Shown piece after piece: positions 6,450 to 35,211 of a DNA stretch of 35,211 nt. Source of the DNA: a virus. The notes beneath the pieces were generated by a model. It saw nothing but the letters and a program-made list of their open reading frames with translations. It was not told the DNA's origin and ran no database searches. The stretch is from positions 1 through 35,211 of IMG/VR virus record IMGVR_UViG_3300034066_000200; one strand, written 5' to 3'. A program made the translations under genes and the position numbers. The number at the start of each line of letters is the position of its first letter. Position 1 is the first letter of the stretch.

Positions 6450-7739
6450 ATGAAATATTCAGAAACACTTAAGGAAAAGCGTCAGGCCGCACTTGCGTCC
6501 GCAGACGCATTGGTAGCACAAGCACAGGTAGAAACCCGTGACTTGAGCAAAGAAGAAGATGCAGAAATTGCAAAGCATCTTGACGAAGTACGTGATCTTG
6601 ACGATCAAATCTCACGCCACGAAGAGCTTGAGGCTCGTTCGGCAAAGGCTGCTGAGGTTCGTGCTGAAAACAAGATCGAGCAATCGGTTGCTGTCGTTAA
6701 GTCAGAACCACGCACCTATTCACCAAACGCAGACAACTCATTCCTTGCAGACGCATTCCGTTCGCAAGTTTTGGGCGACTTTGACGCACAGGCACGAATC
6801 ACTCGTCACATGAACGAAGAGCGTGTAGAGCGTCGTGACGTGAACAGTGGCAACTTTGCTGGACTCGTCGTTCCGCAATTCTTGACCGATCTCGTTGCAC
6901 CTTTGGCACGAGCAGGACGCCCTACTGCGGATATCGCACGTAAGCATTCCTTGCCAGCCGCAGGTTTGACGATCTCATTGAGCAAGATCACCACTGGTTC
7001 AGCAGTAGCCGCGCAGACTGAAAAGGCTGCCGTTCAGGAAACTGACATGGACGACACGAAGTTGGACATCTCAATCAACACCTATGCCGGTCAACAGAAC
7101 GTTTCCCGTCAGGCGATTGAGCGTGGTACCAACATTGATTCGTTGGTAATGGCTGACCTTCAGAATGCCTACAACACAACGTTGAACACAGCAGTAGTTG
7201 CTGAACTTCTTGCATCAGCAGGACAGTCAGTTACCTACACTGACGCTTCACCAACCGTTGCTGAGATCTATCCGAAGCTCTTGGATGCGATTCAGAAAGT
7301 TCAGACCACGTTCTACGCTGGTCCAAACGTGATCATCATGCACCCACGCCGTTTGGCTTGGTTCATGTCTGCACTTGATGGCCAGAACCGTCCATTGGTT
7401 GTACCAACACCTGTTGCCATGAACCCAATGGGTTACGGCTCAGGCGCAGTTCAGTACGGAAACAGTGGCTACTCGATCGCAGGCTTGCCTGTCGTGACCG
7501 ACGCAACCGTTTCGGTAGCGCAAGGTGCAGGCACCAACCAAGACACCATCTATGTGGGTAACGCACAGGAACTTCACCTGTGGGAAGATTCCCCAATGAT
7601 GTTGCGCTTTGAGCAACCACAGTCTCAGAAACTTGAGATCACGATGATCGTGTACGGCTACGCGGCTTTCACCGCAAACCGTTACCCAAATGCTTGGGCA
7701 CAGATCAACGGCACGGGATTGGTAACACCTACTTTCTAA
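6450..7739 (+). CDS. Major capsid protein (HK97 fold)
   Basis: A 429-residue capsid subunit. Residues 1 to about 75 are a charged helical region (KYSETLKEKRQAALASADAL, many Glu/Lys heptads), the delta/scaffold domain expected to be cut off by the upstream protease. The shell part follows: SGNFAGLVVPQFLTDLV, RPTADIARKHSLP, NVSRQAIERG, and the domain with IIMHPRRLAWFMSALD. I chose ATG 6450 because GGAGTAGCA precedes it. Upstream in-frame ATGs at 6438 and 6336 lack such a site. A hairpin terminator follows immediately, so this gene can be transcribed above the level of the genes after it. Confidence 0.95.
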   Translation: MKYSETLKEKRQAALASADALVAQAQVETRDLSKEEDAEIAKHLDEVRDLDDQISRHEELEARSAKAAEVRAENKIEQSVAVVKSEPRTYSPNADNSFLADAFRSQVLGDFDAQARITRHMNEERVERRDVNSGNFAGLVVPQFLTDLVAPLARAGRPTADIARKHSLPAAGLTISLSKITTGSAVAAQTEKAAVQETDMDDTKLDISINTYAGQQNVSRQAIERGTNIDSLVMADLQNAYNTTLNTAVVAELLASAGQSVTYTDASPTVAEIYPKLLDAIQKVQTTFYAGPNVIIMHPRRLAWFMSALDGQNRPLVVPTPVAMNPMGYGSGAVQYGNSGYSIAGLPVVTDATVSVAQGAGTNQDTIYVGNAQELHLWEDSPMMLRFEQPQSQKLEITMIVYGYAAFTANRYPNAWAQINGTGLVTPTF

Positions 7740-9205: not shown

Positions 9206-9610
9206 ATGCCAACAGTAGTCCTCACAAACGCTCTCATCACAGTAGGTGGAAATGATCTTTCATCACTGGCAAACACCGTGACATTGAACTACGAAATTGA
9301 TTCAGTAGAAGCAACCGGCTTTTCACAGAACCACAACTTCGTAGGTGGTCTTCAGAACAACTCAGTTGAGGTGACTCTGATGCAAGACTTCGCGGCCACA
9401 AAGACGGAACCAGTTGTTTATCCACTTGTGGGAACGCAAACAACCGTCACGATCAAGGCCGTTAATACGACTACATCGACAACTAACCCTCTATACACAC
9501 TCTCCAGCACATATCTTGGAGCGCATACCCCAGTCTCTGCTGGAGTTGGTGAACTCGCTACGACTTCATTGACTTTTAACGGTGGAACCCTCGTCAAAAC
9601 AACTTCTTAA
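9206..9610 (+). CDS. Tail tube protein, copy 1
   Basis: A 134-residue beta-rich protein read as a major tail tube subunit that polymerises around the tape measure. It shares its whole layout with the next gene: N-terminal LTNALIT, VTLNYEIDSVEATGF, the block FVGGLQNNS-E-TLMQDFA, VYPLVGTQTTVT, and the C-terminal block HTPVSAGVGELATTSLTF. These match small actinophage-type tail tube proteins. The tail-assembly chaperone and tape measure lie downstream, as expected. Which copy forms the tube is not shown by sequence. Confidence 0.82.
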   Translation: MPTVVLTNALITVGGNDLSSLANTVTLNYEIDSVEATGFSQNHNFVGGLQNNSVEVTLMQDFAATKTEPVVYPLVGTQTTVTIKAVNTTTSTTNPLYTLSSTYLGAHTPVSAGVGELATTSLTFNGGTLVKTTS

Positions 9611-9625
9611 TTAAGGAAACTCATC

Positions 9626-10033
9626 ATGGCTGTACTCGCACTCACTAATGCTCATATCACGATCAACTCAGTCGTACTTAGCGACCACGCAAACAACGTT
9701 ACTTTCAACTACGAAGTTGATTCCGTTGAAGTAACCGCATTTGGAGATAGCGGACACAAGTTCGTCGGTGGATTGCAGAATAACTCCTGCGAAATTACCT
9801 TGATGCAAGACTTCGCAACTTCCAACGTTGAAGCAACGATCTACCCATTGGTAGGTACCACTACCACGATCATTGTTCGTCCGAACGGTGCAACTACTGG
9901 CGCAACCAACCCTTCCTACACCTTGACAGGAACCTTCCTCGCTTCGCATACTCCAGTATCTGCAGGTGTTGGAGAACTGGCTACAACCTCGCTAACCTTT
10001 ACCGGTGGAACGATCGCCAAAGCAGTCGCTTAA
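9626..10033 (+). CDS. Tail tube protein, copy 2 (paralogue of copy 1)
   Basis: A 135-residue paralogue of the upstream gene, with the same length and the same conserved blocks (FVGGLQNNSCEITLMQDFA; HTPVSAGVGELATTSLTF). The first third and the loops differ (SVVLSDHANN; FGDSGHKF; RPNGATTGATNP). ATG 9626 follows TAAGGAAAC. An old tandem duplication is the simple explanation. One copy may form the tube and the other a cap, decoration or alternate subunit. Both reading frames are intact, so both are probably kept by selection. Confidence 0.82.
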   Translation: MAVLALTNAHITINSVVLSDHANNVTFNYEVDSVEVTAFGDSGHKFVGGLQNNSCEITLMQDFATSNVEATIYPLVGTTTTIIVRPNGATTGATNPSYTLTGTFLASHTPVSAGVGELATTSLTFTGGTIAKAVA

Positions 10034-10062
10034 TACAAACCTCTGACTAAGAAGGAGTCAAT

Positions 10063-32226: not shown

Positions 32227-32964
32227 ATGGCACTTTTCACGCAAAATAGCGAACTTAAGCCACATGGAATCTTTAACTGGACAATTCCTGCTTGGTATGT
32301 TCGCCGCGCCGATGGTTCAATATTCAAAACCTGTCCGAACGCTGGAGCGTGTGCGAAAGTTTGTTACGCAAGAAATGGCACATACAGATTTAGCAACGTT
32401 GTTTCGGCACACACTCGGAATCTTGACCTAGTACTCGATGATCCTTCAACTTGGGAGGAAGAGGTCTGCCAAGAGCTTCGGAAGCGCAAATATCGCCCAA
32501 CAGGGAGTGTCAGGGAGTTACCAGACGGGATAAAACTGCACGACCTAGACCCGTGGCTAGTCGAATGGGTTCAGCACGGTGGTAAGGCCGTGAGGATTCA
32601 CGATGCAGGCGACTTCTTCGCAGACTGGTATTTAGAGGCATGGCTGAGAATTTGTCGGGAGAACCTAGACATTTTGTTTTACGCATACACCAAGGAGGTG
32701 TCGATGTTCCGAAGGGTCAAGCAATTTCCCGTTAACTTCAGATATCTCTTTTCAACTGGTGGGCTGGAAGATCATTTGATCGGAGAAGATCGTCACGCAG
32801 ACGTATTCCCGACTGAGGAGGCGATTATTGCGGCTGGTTACATCTCGCAAGACGCAAGCGACCTCTTGGCCGTACTTCTTCCTACGAACAAAATAGGCAT
32901 ACCTGCCAATAACATTCCTGCCTTCAACAAGAAACTCGCCGGTAGAAGATTCTCGGAGATTTAG
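32227..32964 (+). CDS. GP88-like phage protein with three-Cys motif
   Basis: A 245-residue protein resembling the actinophage 'Gene product 88' family. The N-terminal FTQNSELKPHGIFNWTIPAW is followed by FKTCPNAGACAKVCYARNGT, with C36, C42 and C46, then RFSNVVSAHTRNLDL. Later VRIHDAGDFFADWYLEAWLR, ILFYAYTKEVSMFRR, LFSTGGLEDHLIG and LPTNKIGIP are barrel-like strand/helix pairs. The Cys trio and the layout recall Fe-S or radical-SAM-like proteins, but the spacing C-x5-C-x3-C is not the radical-SAM C-x3-C-x2-C. Function is unknown. It lies upstream of ParB, TET and glycosyltransferase genes, which hints at a link to DNA modification. Confidence 0.75.
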   Translation: MALFTQNSELKPHGIFNWTIPAWYVRRADGSIFKTCPNAGACAKVCYARNGTYRFSNVVSAHTRNLDLVLDDPSTWEEEVCQELRKRKYRPTGSVRELPDGIKLHDLDPWLVEWVQHGGKAVRIHDAGDFFADWYLEAWLRICRENLDILFYAYTKEVSMFRRVKQFPVNFRYLFSTGGLEDHLIGEDRHADVFPTEEAIIAAGYISQDASDLLAVLLPTNKIGIPANNIPAFNKKLAGRRFSEI

Positions 32965-32992
32965 GCTACGCTGATCTACGAAGGAGAGAAGA

Positions 32993-33622
32993 ATGAACAT
33001 TAGAGAAGAACTCAAACAACTGGCTCATCCGATCACAGAATTCAAGACGCATCCAAGAAACGTGCGTCAGGGAGATGTCGGAGCGATCACAGAATCACTT
33101 AATGCCCACGGGCAATACCGTGCCATTGTGGTTCAGAAGTCAACAGGCTATGTATTGGCAGGCAACCACACGCTCATGGCCGCAAGAGCACTCGGCTGGA
33201 AAGAAGTAGCCGCGACCTTCGTTGATTGCGATGACGAGCAAGCTCTTCGCATCTTGTTAGTGGATAATCGAGCGAATGATCTCGCTATGTACGATGACCG
33301 TGCACTTGCAGATGTACTGAAAGAACTCGCTTCAACGGAACTCGGCCTTGACGGTTCGTTATTCAACGGAGATGACCTTGACGACTTGATCTATCGGCTT
33401 GAAGGCACAACAGGAAACGCCACGGAAGGAAAGTCGCTCACTGAAGAATCAGACAAGTACGCAGAGAACGACACCAGAACGTTGATGCTCCCTTATCGAG
33501 TGTCCGAGTACACCGATCTCGTCACCAAGCTCTCGGCTATCCGCAGTTCATTCGGAGATGAAAGCAACTCTGCAGTCTTTAAGCGAATCGTTGATCAAGC
33601 GTATGAAGACCTACAATCTTGA
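32993..33622 (+). CDS. ParB/Srx-fold protein
   Basis: A 209-residue protein, ATG 32993 after AAGGAGAGAAG. The ParB N-terminal domain is clear at residues 13-100: ITEFKTHPRNVRQGDVGAIT, ESLNAHGQYRAIVVQ, YVLAGNHTLMAARALGWKEV, LRILLVDNRANDLAMYDD. A helical extension follows (DDRALADVLKELAST), and a C-terminal domain with LMLPYRVSEYTDLVTKLSAI. There is no partition ParA gene, so this is the phage ParB-like nuclease/NTPase type. In phages such proteins repeatedly neighbour DNA base-modification genes. It overlaps the TET gene by 20 bases, so joint expression is clear. It may guide or couple the modification enzymes to DNA. Confidence 0.88.
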   Translation: MNIREELKQLAHPITEFKTHPRNVRQGDVGAITESLNAHGQYRAIVVQKSTGYVLAGNHTLMAARALGWKEVAATFVDCDDEQALRILLVDNRANDLAMYDDRALADVLKELASTELGLDGSLFNGDDLDDLIYRLEGTTGNATEGKSLTEESDKYAENDTRTLMLPYRVSEYTDLVTKLSAIRSSFGDESNSAVFKRIVDQAYEDLQS

Positions 33623-34427
33623 GTTCAGGGAATGGGAGCCGATAGTTCGGCGTCAACAAGCACCTTTGCTGGAAGGCAACGATGAGGATCTGATCGGATA
33701 CGACAACGGAGTGCCGGTGCTGTATCAATCGACTAACTGGGAAGCAGATCAAGACCTCCTCACGGAACTAACCAGAACGTTGCGCTTCGGTATTAAATAC
33801 CAGAACCCAACTGCTGCGGCGAGACTCTCTGGAATCAAAGCCAGCAACGAATACTTCGGGACAGTCCCTCCACAACCAACACGGAGAAGGTACGCATGCC
33901 GAGAAGCGCGGCTATACACCTCCCTCCCACATCTCAAGGGAATAATTGATCAACTGACTAAGCAGATGTTTGAGAACTTTCAGTTGTACTTCCCAGACGA
34001 ATGTGCCCGGCATACGGAGTTAGTGGAGCAATCAATACTCCCTGACTGGTGGATCGCTGACACTCCTTTCACTTCGGGAATCATCAACGACAAGAGCGCA
34101 CTTCCCTACCACAAGGATTCAGGCAACCTTCAGGGAACTTGGTCAATGATGCTCTGCCTACGCAACGGCACGGCTGGTGGTGGCCTGCATATACCTGAAT
34201 ACGACATCAACCTCGGCATCCCTGATCGATCACTCACTATCTTTGAGGGACAACGTCTGTGGCACGGAGTCAACCCTCTCGTCTATCGCAAGAATGACCC
34301 TTACCGATTCACGCTGGTCTGGTATGTGAAAGAGCAGATCCGCAATTGTTCCTGCATCAAAGACGAGCCATTAAGAGCCGCAAAGAAGGCAACAGAAGTA
34401 CAGGAGGGTTATGTCAACAACGATTGA
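33603..34427 (+). CDS. TET/JBP-family Fe(II)/2-oxoglutarate dioxygenase (5-methylcytosine hydroxylase)
   Basis: A 274-residue enzyme predicted to oxidise 5-methylcytosine in DNA to 5-hydroxymethylcytosine using O2 and 2-oxoglutarate. The double-stranded beta-helix ligands are visible: iron ligands H170 and D172 in LPYHKDSGN and H221 in RLWHGVNPL, and the 2-oxoglutarate-binding R235 in PYRFTLVWY. GGGLHIPEY (192-200) and RSLTIFEG (209-216) are the conserved strands between them. The N-terminal 150 residues include a Cys/Arg-rich part (RRRYACREARLY) and PDWWIADTPFTSGIIN. Size fits phage TET proteins. ATG 33603 was chosen. An upstream ATG (33558) lies deep in ParB. The next gene overlaps by 17 bases and encodes the expected glycosyltransferase. 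Confidence 0.88.
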   Translation: MKTYNLEFREWEPIVRRQQAPLLEGNDEDLIGYDNGVPVLYQSTNWEADQDLLTELTRTLRFGIKYQNPTAAARLSGIKASNEYFGTVPPQPTRRRYACREARLYTSLPHLKGIIDQLTKQMFENFQLYFPDECARHTELVEQSILPDWWIADTPFTSGIINDKSALPYHKDSGNLQGTWSMMLCLRNGTAGGGLHIPEYDINLGIPDRSLTIFEGQRLWHGVNPLVYRKNDPYRFTLVWYVKEQIRNCSCIKDEPLRAAKKATEVQEGYVNND

Positions 34428-35211
34428 CAAAGGGCTCAAGGTATTCGTCTTTGGATACAACCGGTACGACTCAATGAGCACTTCGATCATGCTGGAGCAA
34501 GAGGGCATTGACCACTATGTGCTCTGCCACACTCAAGAAGCGTCTGATCTATTCGTAGAGAACGGCACTGCCAAGAAGGAACGCCTGATCGTCACTAACT
34601 GCCCAAGAGGACTGGCATATCAGCGCAACTTTGCACTTGAGATGATGAAAGAAGGGGAATGGGCACTGTTCCTAGTCGATGACCTCAAGAGTGTCAGCGA
34701 ACTGCGTAACTACGACAGGACGAAGGAGGCCAAGCTCCCGATCACTACTGACAATCAGAACCACTATGGCAAGAGGTTTGAGAACCCGATAACCATGACA
34801 CAGTTCATGAAGCGCACACATGAATTGATTGCAGAGTGCGAGAAGTATGGCGCCAATCTCGGAGGCTTCGCCGGCATCAACAATCCCTTATACAGAGCCA
34901 AGCATTGGTCATACAATGTGTTGGCTGATGGCCGCGCATGGGCAGTACGCAAGACACACCTGCGCTTTGATGAGAACGTTCAACTGATAGACGACCTGTG
35001 CTGGACAGCCTTGAACATCAAGCACTTCGGCCTAGTAGTCGTGAATCAGTGGGTACTGCCAGACTGTCGCAGGTATTCAGCAGGAGCGTTCGGTTCAATC
35101 GAGGAGCGCATGCCACAGAAGCTCGCAGAAGCCAAGTACCTAGTAGAGACATACCCAGAGTTGATCTCATTCAAGGAGAAGGCTGGCTGGCCATTCGGGG
35201 CACACGTTGTA
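34411..35211 (+). CDS. TET-associated glycosyltransferase-like protein (TAGT), runs off the right end
   Basis: The first 267 codons of a gene that finishes at 181 across the circle (279 residues in all). ATG 34411 follows AGGAGGG. It resembles a GT-A glycosyltransferase: KVFVFGYNRYDS nucleotide-sugar loop, PRGLAYQRNFALEMM, the acidic pair in LFLVDDLKS (D90-D91, DxD-like), LGGFAGINNPLYRAKHW, then LADGRAWAVRK, RFDENVQLIDDLCWTALNIK and the C-terminal FGSIEERMPQKLAEAKYLVE. Such proteins are fused or adjacent to TET dioxygenases in phages and are predicted to glycosylate 5-hydroxymethylcytosine. The overlap with TET and with HNH marks one transcription unit. The sugar donor cannot be told. Confidence 0.8.
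   Translation, partial: MSTTIDKGLKVFVFGYNRYDSMSTSIMLEQEGIDHYVLCHTQEASDLFVENGTAKKERLIVTNCPRGLAYQRNFALEMMKEGEWALFLVDDLKSVSELRNYDRTKEAKLPITTDNQNHYGKRFENPITMTQFMKRTHELIAECEKYGANLGGFAGINNPLYRAKHWSYNVLADGRAWAVRKTHLRFDENVQLIDDLCWTALNIKHFGLVVVNQWVLPDCRRYSAGAFGSIEERMPQKLAEAKYLVETYPELISFKEKAGWPFGAHVV
35070..35211. repeat. Right copy of terminal direct repeat (circular overlap)
   Basis: Matches positions 1-142 over its full length except C at 35196 for T at 127. It lies within the glycosyltransferase gene. It marks where the assembled sequence runs over its own start, so the unique sequence is 35,069 bp. Confidence 0.95.

Follow-up and report, generated by a model that had tools for sequence, protein, structure and literature searches.

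Gene order of the cassette

Does a phage operon for a TET/JBP-like dioxygenase and a glycosyltransferase also include the two genes in front of it, one encoding a GP88-like protein and the other a ParB-fold protein? The initial annotation of the window, by which we mean the whole stretch of DNA analyzed, a virus record of 35,211 bases, proposed that both genes are wired into the operon. Our analysis upholds this for ParB, which tracks the modification module, but not for GP88, which does not.

The genes of the cassette are all located on the plus strand. The first encodes a GP88-like protein of 245 amino acids (32227–32964; PF17338, Pfam E = 3.5e-43, 148.5 bits against a curated cut-off of 24.4), for which AlphaFold2 predicted a radical-SAM-like fold. 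Its open reading frame ends 28 bases before that of a ParB/Srx-fold protein of 209 amino acids (32993–33622), which matched the PHROG ParB profile with E = 1.5e-38 and Pfam ParB_N with E = 2.9e-5, the latter being under the Pfam cut-off. The TET/JBP-like dioxygenase follows (33558–34427; Tet_JBP E = 2.3e-5, phrog_6059 E = 2.1e-37), scoring 24.1 bits against PF12851 and thus under the cut-off of 34.9. Residues H185, D187, H236 and R250, which represent the HxD...H metal site and the distal arginine, were invariant in 7/7 aligned relatives. The ParB and TET frames overlap by 65 nt as counted from the longest ATG (33558); with the ATG at 33603, the likely start since it aligns with the starts of the relatives, the overlap is 20 nt. 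Another overlap, of 17 nt, connects TET to the gene for a TAGT-like glycosyltransferase (34411–35211; TAGT E = 5.1e-4, phrog_842 E = 3.5e-8). The score of this protein against PF20691 was 20.5 bits, under the cut-off of 27.5, the gene being split by the contig end; its relative in locus L031 reached 36.3 bits.

Bases 1–142 of the window repeat bases 35070–35211 with 99% identity, and the ends of the record therefore join. The glycosyltransferase frame resumes across this terminal repeat at 143–181, placing the 3' end of the gene at 1–181 and the stop codon at 179–181. The stop codon has one base in common with the ATG of the gene for a small zinc-ribbon HNH protein (181–459; phrog_338 E = 5.6e-7, a weak Pfam match of 0.031, and alignment), an order that is visible only because the repeat joins the window ends, with the HNH gene at the opposite end. 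The HNH gene closes the cassette, and the small (683–1165) and large (1107–2612) terminase genes, identified with Pfam and PHROG, form its downstream border (683–2612). The order GP88-like, ParB, TET, glycosyltransferase and HNH was thereby confirmed, as were the overlaps among the last four genes and the 28-base gap.

The cassette shares with the phage TET/TAGT cytosine hypermodification operons (PF12851, PF20691) the order of a TET gene followed by a TAGT-like glycosyltransferase gene and the conserved HxD...H...R residues. It differs from them in that the Pfam scores of both proteins are under the cut-off, in that ParB and GP88 are located in front, and in that the slot is common to unrelated chemistries. 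Elsewhere in the window, positions 9206–10034 contain two tandem related genes (9206–9610 and 9626–10033), with DNA repeats of 70–81% identity located 420–423 nt apart.

Exchange of the modification module

The neighbors of GP88 were compared in 13 loci and in the best 80 of at least 561 relatives, with 15 duplicate rows of one contig dropped. Like the other samples of relatives (the best 80 of 296 and the best 80 of 552), this sample leans to close relatives because the best 80 of longer lists were kept. In the group closest to the window, the order was GP88, a small gene in some of the loci, ParB, module, HNH and terminase. The gene order is common to the relatives, and the middle enzyme is exchangeable.

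The module consists of TET and a TAGT-like glycosyltransferase in the window and L032, and of TET and TAGT in L031. TET is combined with ADDT, GNAT, an FAD oxidoreductase and a P-loop kinase in L002, with ADDT, a PLP enzyme and, from the same cluster, a P-loop kinase-like gene in L028, and with nucleotidyl- and phosphotransferase-like genes in L019. TAGT is present without TET in L009, L029 and L036. The slot is occupied by Mom in L007, by a ParB fused to an N6/N4-methyltransferase in L008, by an ABC-ATPase with a GNAT acetyltransferase in L025 and by a C5-methyltransferase in L030. Next to GP88 in L285 (4448–8056), it contains a 7-deazaguanine-type module of a ParB-DUF6610 fusion, QueF and QueC, and in the HNH-anchored locus L302 (5113–7471) a ParB, a PAPS-reductase/DUF3440 protein and a second ParB. 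The module genes were assigned by Pfam matches to Mom (4.5e-54), TAGT (to 1e-36), C5-methyltransferase (6.6e-64), ADDT (4e-19), Ploopntkinase3 (1.6e-17), QueC (9e-63) and QueF (7e-20); the N6_N4 methyltransferase was also matched.

Five of these loci (L025, L029, L030, L031 and L032) form a natural swap set. They have the small gene in common, and their GP88 proteins are 88–96% identical, the HNH proteins 82–92% and the ParB N-domains 77–86%. These loci nevertheless contain four module classes, namely TET with glycosyltransferase, glycosyltransferase alone, C5-methyltransferase, and ATPase with acetyltransferase, and their ParB tails are just 25–48% alike.

We consider it fairly probable that the locus serves as a slot, directly upstream of the terminase, into which DNA-modification genes plug; ParB and the enzymes would constitute the plug, and GP88 would be a separate radical-SAM-like enzyme and not a step of the TET chemistry. 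What had been a vague operon association can thereby be put as rules open to testing: the slot is exchangeable, one domain of ParB is conserved, and the ParB tail is specific to the enzyme. It also suggests that one type of adaptor may recruit very different enzymes to phage DNA, including TET, Mom, methyltransferases and those of deazaguanine and thymidine hypermodification.

Neighborhoods of TET genes

A scan of viral contigs with a single TET sequence gave no matches. A TET profile matched 111 relatives in viral contigs, of which the best 80 were kept, leaving 71 once nine duplicates of one contig were dropped. In 53 of the 59 loci with enough sequence, a ParB gene preceded TET at a distance of up to 1.6 kb, and the longest frames of the two genes overlapped in 48 of 57 pairs. 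GP88 was found beside TET in 14 of the 71 loci and was absent from 57 as far as these are sequenced; where at least 2 kb was available on each side, it was within 5 kb of TET in 10 of 45 loci. It was upstream of ParB in ten of the 14 loci and between TET and TAGT in L119. In L135 and L145 it immediately follows TET, and in L162 the distance is 5.8 kb. Phage TET-like genes, such as gene 2 of NC_051582.1, are often annotated as queuine tRNA-ribosyltransferase or DpdA-like transglycosylase; these names, which PHROG 6059 also has, are apparently the result of annotation transfer.

GP88 and TET may co-occur since both favor the terminase region. ParB cassettes were sampled via the terminase or HNH gene, which is neutral in that it favors neither GP88 nor TET; contigs with less than 1 kb visible upstream of ParB were dropped unless GP88 was seen. 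GP88 was present in 9 of these 36 cassettes, comprising 3 of the 6 with TET and 6 of the 30 without TET (odds ratio 4, Fisher P = 0.15, n small). In 28 arbitrary viral loci (223 kb), no match to GP88, ParB or modification genes was obtained. Since GP88 is far more common by TET cassettes than in arbitrary DNA and the odds ratio is 4, albeit not significant, a preference for TET is possible. The expectation that both families are enriched beside TET genes thus held for ParB and, relative to arbitrary viral DNA, for GP88, but GP88 was not significantly linked to TET in the neutral cassettes.

Two explanations of the adjacency of GP88 and TET were rejected: pure chance, based on the 0/28 arbitrary loci, and a TET-specific partnership, based on the low frequency of GP88 in TET loci, the same GP88 occurring across modules, its lack of module tracking (see below) and the P value of the neutral set.

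The annotation had also suggested that GP88 performs further chemistry on the modified base. A radical or Fe-S enzyme adding a step to the TET/glycosyltransferase base would agree with the short distance to ParB, the three conserved cysteines, the radical-SAM-like predicted fold and the gene positions in L119, L135 and L145. However, GP88 remains 88–96% identical while the module is swapped, it accompanies Mom, C5-methyltransferase, N6-methyltransferase, TAGT-only and ATPase/GNAT modules, and it is mostly found without TET. Together with its absence from most TET loci as far as sequenced, these results speak against the suggestion, and we regard such a step as very unlikely.

The ParB tail and the module

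The module-matched part of ParB is its C-terminal tail (33329–33619), delimited from the tail/module tracking and the swap among close relatives. In 79 of 85 non-redundant ParBs, the best match of the tail had the same module, as compared to 57 of 85 for the N-domain. Shuffling of the tail labels gave a mean of 35 and a maximum of 50 in 2000 runs. When N-domain relatives of at least 65% identity were removed, the numbers were 73/85 for the tail and 35/85 for the N-domain. The tails of the N6-methyltransferase class in this test include the methyltransferase itself (4/85). For GP88, the best match had the same module in 7 of 23 cases (shuffle mean 5.8, P = 0.37). We therefore assign the tail of ParB, but not GP88, to the module. 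The conclusion that ParB belongs to the modification module is thus supported, although the tail and the module could co-travel merely as DNA neighbors, and linkage alone is no proof of contact. The ParBs next to TAGT without TET (L009, L010, L029 and the tail at 6767–7543 of L036) displayed a long tail with the motifs KVPQYEIVGE...FNYxKIAEFYPH..., and Pfam gave no match in the long tail of L036.

The AlphaFold2 model of ParB (pLDDT 89) matched KorB with Z = 11.9 (133 residues, 3.3 Å) and ParB of M. xanthus with Z = 11.2 (87 residues, 1.7 Å). The N-domains of ParB, KorB and Noc scored from 11.9 to 8.2, mostly over residues 8–96, and sulfiredoxin and a serine kinase were weaker. Matches to known structures were confined to the N-domain. 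The model thus confirms that the predicted N-domain (approximately residues 8–96) has a real ParB/Srx fold. With regard to an HTH domain, Pfam gave ParB_N only, and the KorB row aligned residues 5–144, past the N-domain. The GERR motif is characteristic of the CTP-binding (clamp) ParB partition proteins. It is absent from the ParB of the window, which has G57-N58-H59-T60 where GERR is expected; G57 is invariant, and N58 and H59 are nearly so. In relatives, the same N-domain is fused to an N6/N4-methyltransferase or to DUF6610.

The presence of ParB in the TET loci, the matching of its tail to the module and its fold support the suggestion of the annotation that ParB takes part in modification, and it may reasonably be supposed to act in targeting. 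PMC12839542 describes DpdB as a ParB-like ATPase that enables the insertion of dPreQ0 into DNA. DpdA-DpdB resembles the cassette in having a ParB-fold protein adjoining a DNA base-modifying enzyme, and some relatives of the slot carry QueC/QueF with a ParB-DUF6610 fusion; here, however, the enzyme is TET. A similar arrangement is described in PMC12783734 for CmoX, a phage cytosine-modifying enzyme (carboxymethylcytosine), next to ParBc genes whose role is called unknown there. TET is absent from the main text of that paper, and GP88 from the paper as a whole.

By analogy with DpdB and DpdA, ParB would probably load or hold the enzyme on phage DNA. In such a mechanism, ParB would serve as the DNA/ATP partner of the module, with a conserved ParB/Srx N-domain that holds DNA or nucleotide and a tail, specific to the adjacent enzyme, that contacts its own enzyme, thereby bringing TET and the glycosyltransferase to phage DNA. 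As judged from the chemistry of their families, TET would oxidize a C5-methyl pyrimidine of the DNA, and the product would be glycosylated by the TAGT-like enzyme. Alternatively, ParB could be a nuclease or a regulator, like Osa or DndB, instead of a targeting or loading partner. The replacement of GERR by G-N-H-T in a ParB/Srx N-domain is consistent with this, as are the ATP-regulated nicking by ParB/Srx proteins and the roles in ATP pools described for the superfamily in PMC12839542. The enzyme-matched tail and the N-domain fusions fit a physical partner better, and we consider a nuclease or regulator quite unlikely.

Predicted fold and cysteine motif of GP88

The AlphaFold2 model of GP88 had a pLDDT of 95.5 and a pTM of 0.92. 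In a VIA-align run on the chains ranked highest by Foldseek, the top 12 rows were all radical-SAM enzymes (Z 6.7–5.0), comprising viperins (6.7–5.0), TYW1 (5.4), SuiB (5.3) and sactipeptide enzymes (5.2 and 5.0), and the first unrelated row had a Z of 4.8. The best viperin row aligned 152 residues at 4.2 Å; matches with Z below 8 are not safe alone. Foldseek against the PDB gave nothing at E < 0.001 for the model (best 0.18). No sequence relatives with solved structures were found for GP88 (one chance row, E = 0.25) or for DUF5131 (E = 0.74 or worse), and no NCBIfam model matched GP88.

The three-cysteine motif C36-x5-C42-x3-C46, followed by YA, is present at 32332–32364 as the annotation had it. 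C36 and C46 were conserved in 69/69 aligned relatives and C42 in 67/69, the two exceptions having the cysteine shifted to C-x6-C-x2-C; in a more diverse set, the three cysteines aligned in 20/20. The spacing varies within the family, with CX5CX3C here, CX6CX3C in D29, CX6CX2C in two paralogs and a long insert in S-SRM01. Canonical radical SAM enzymes have a partial TIM barrel core and the motif CX3CX2C, to which ThiC, PhnJ and HmdA are exceptions, and this motif was not found in the GP88 of the window. The invariant G128-D129 may be, judging from the alignment, the counterpart of a GGE-type SAM-binding motif.

These results agree with the description of GP88 as Fe-S-like yet not canonical radical SAM, and the structure prediction, with radical-SAM enzymes as the best fold-level matches, did not indicate a fold without a metal site. 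Although these enzymes (viperin, TYW1, SuiB) were the best solved-structure matches of the model, the Z scores below 8, the lack of a significant Foldseek match and the varying, non-canonical cysteine spacing led us to call GP88 radical-SAM-like and not a member. The most likely reading is that of an independent, radical-SAM-like enzyme carried by mobile elements.

The PF07505 profile (DUF5131, phage Gp37-Gp68) had no match in the window. In profile comparisons with hhalign, GP88 aligned with DUF5131 at E = 7.5e-5, or 3.8e-5 with the more diverse GP88 set, as compared to 0.083–0.36 for unrelated controls. The alignment spans the cysteine motif, the conserved strand/loop RIHDAGDFF (32593–32619), which aligns with FVNSMSDLF of DUF5131, and the YTK/LTK motif. 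Thus, the C...CxxCYA, SD.F and LTK motifs of DUF5131 have counterparts in GP88, and the two profiles are remotely related, although the DUF5131 spacing of C-x6-C-x2-C differs from that of the GP88 in the window. A second, divergent GP88 gene with the DUF5131 spacing is located on the minus strand in L062 (1958–2878) and L075 (2510–3430).

Distribution and possible roles of GP88

Of 80 GP88 loci, not counting the four phage records L015–L018, 17 had ParB at a distance of up to 2.5 kb; at up to 6 kb, 30 had a modification match and 37 a terminase or portal gene. ParB and modification matches were both missing from 48. Among annotated phages, GP88 was identified in 83 of 50,697 records, mostly from mycobacteriophages (e.g. 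D29) in addition to Streptomyces phages and cyanophages, and TET in 89 records; no phage was present in both lists among the matches listed (60 each).

Among the best 80 of 137 chromosomal relatives, GP88 occurred in conjugation clusters of actinomycetes with a VirB4/TraC-like and a TraG/TraD-like coupling ATPase in 46 of 66 loci, counted from HMM hits in loci with 4 kb of flanking sequence in each direction; the gene caller placed GP88 in just 51 of the 80. In many of the loci L364–L440, GP88 is located between the two ATPases. ParBs flank GP88 on both sides in the Streptomyces loci L364, L368 and L372, with QueE and FolE nearby, and this adjacency along with 7-deazaguanine genes favors a functional tie between GP88 and ParB. 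The analysis thus gives the orphan GP88 family a probable class of fold and places it, unexpectedly, in conjugative elements.

GP88 could be a general partner of ParB-type modification systems of any chemistry, for example one that activates or repairs the complex of ParB and its enzyme, or that modifies DNA in parallel. Independent neighborhoods of GP88 and ParB in the phage group of the window, in L028, L131, L132 and L151 with another terminase type, in L040 with QueD/QueE/FolE and in the Streptomyces elements are consistent with such a role. So is the frequency of modification genes near GP88 as compared to arbitrary loci, a figure that is biased towards this reading because the module HMMs were seeded from GP88 loci. 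The 48 loci with neither match and the presence of GP88 in just 9 of the 36 neutral cassettes argue against it, and we consider it unlikely. It is somewhat unlikely that GP88 is a passenger, a phage backbone gene that borders the slot by chance and has a role in host takeover or in tRNA or peptide modification: its sequence tracks the backbone and not the module, and its neighbors elsewhere are very different, but it is repeatedly located, in different arrangements, near modification genes in unrelated elements.

As the separate enzyme that we favor, GP88 would perform radical chemistry of its own, apart from the TET pathway, and mobile elements would often keep it close to genes for DNA modification or to machines that translocate DNA (terminase, portal and conjugation ATPases). 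As its substrate we would, with low confidence, prefer the DNA of the element, a nucleotide or one of the element's tRNAs to the TET product. A more specific idea, which we hold to be decidedly improbable, is that GP88 is a stand-alone radical-SAM-type enzyme marking the DNA of the element at or before translocation. It would act in anti-restriction both in phages, by the terminase and portal, and in conjugative elements of actinomycetes, where its gene lies between those of the VirB4-like and the coupling ATPase, and would sometimes be stacked on a ParB-guided module.

Literature searches for GP88/PF17338, DUF5131, Gp37/Gp68 and radical SAM with phage DNA modification gave no account of GP88 in DNA modification; the family name led to a single paper, on long non-coding RNAs, and DUF5131/TcmP, among the matches listed, to papers that were off-topic or dealt with prophages. 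The main text of the MetaGPA study (PMC8670742) contains neither GP88 nor ParB. In seven other loci (L061, L070, L073, L077, L078, L079 and L081), GP88 was located between histone-deacetylase-like and proteasome-like genes.
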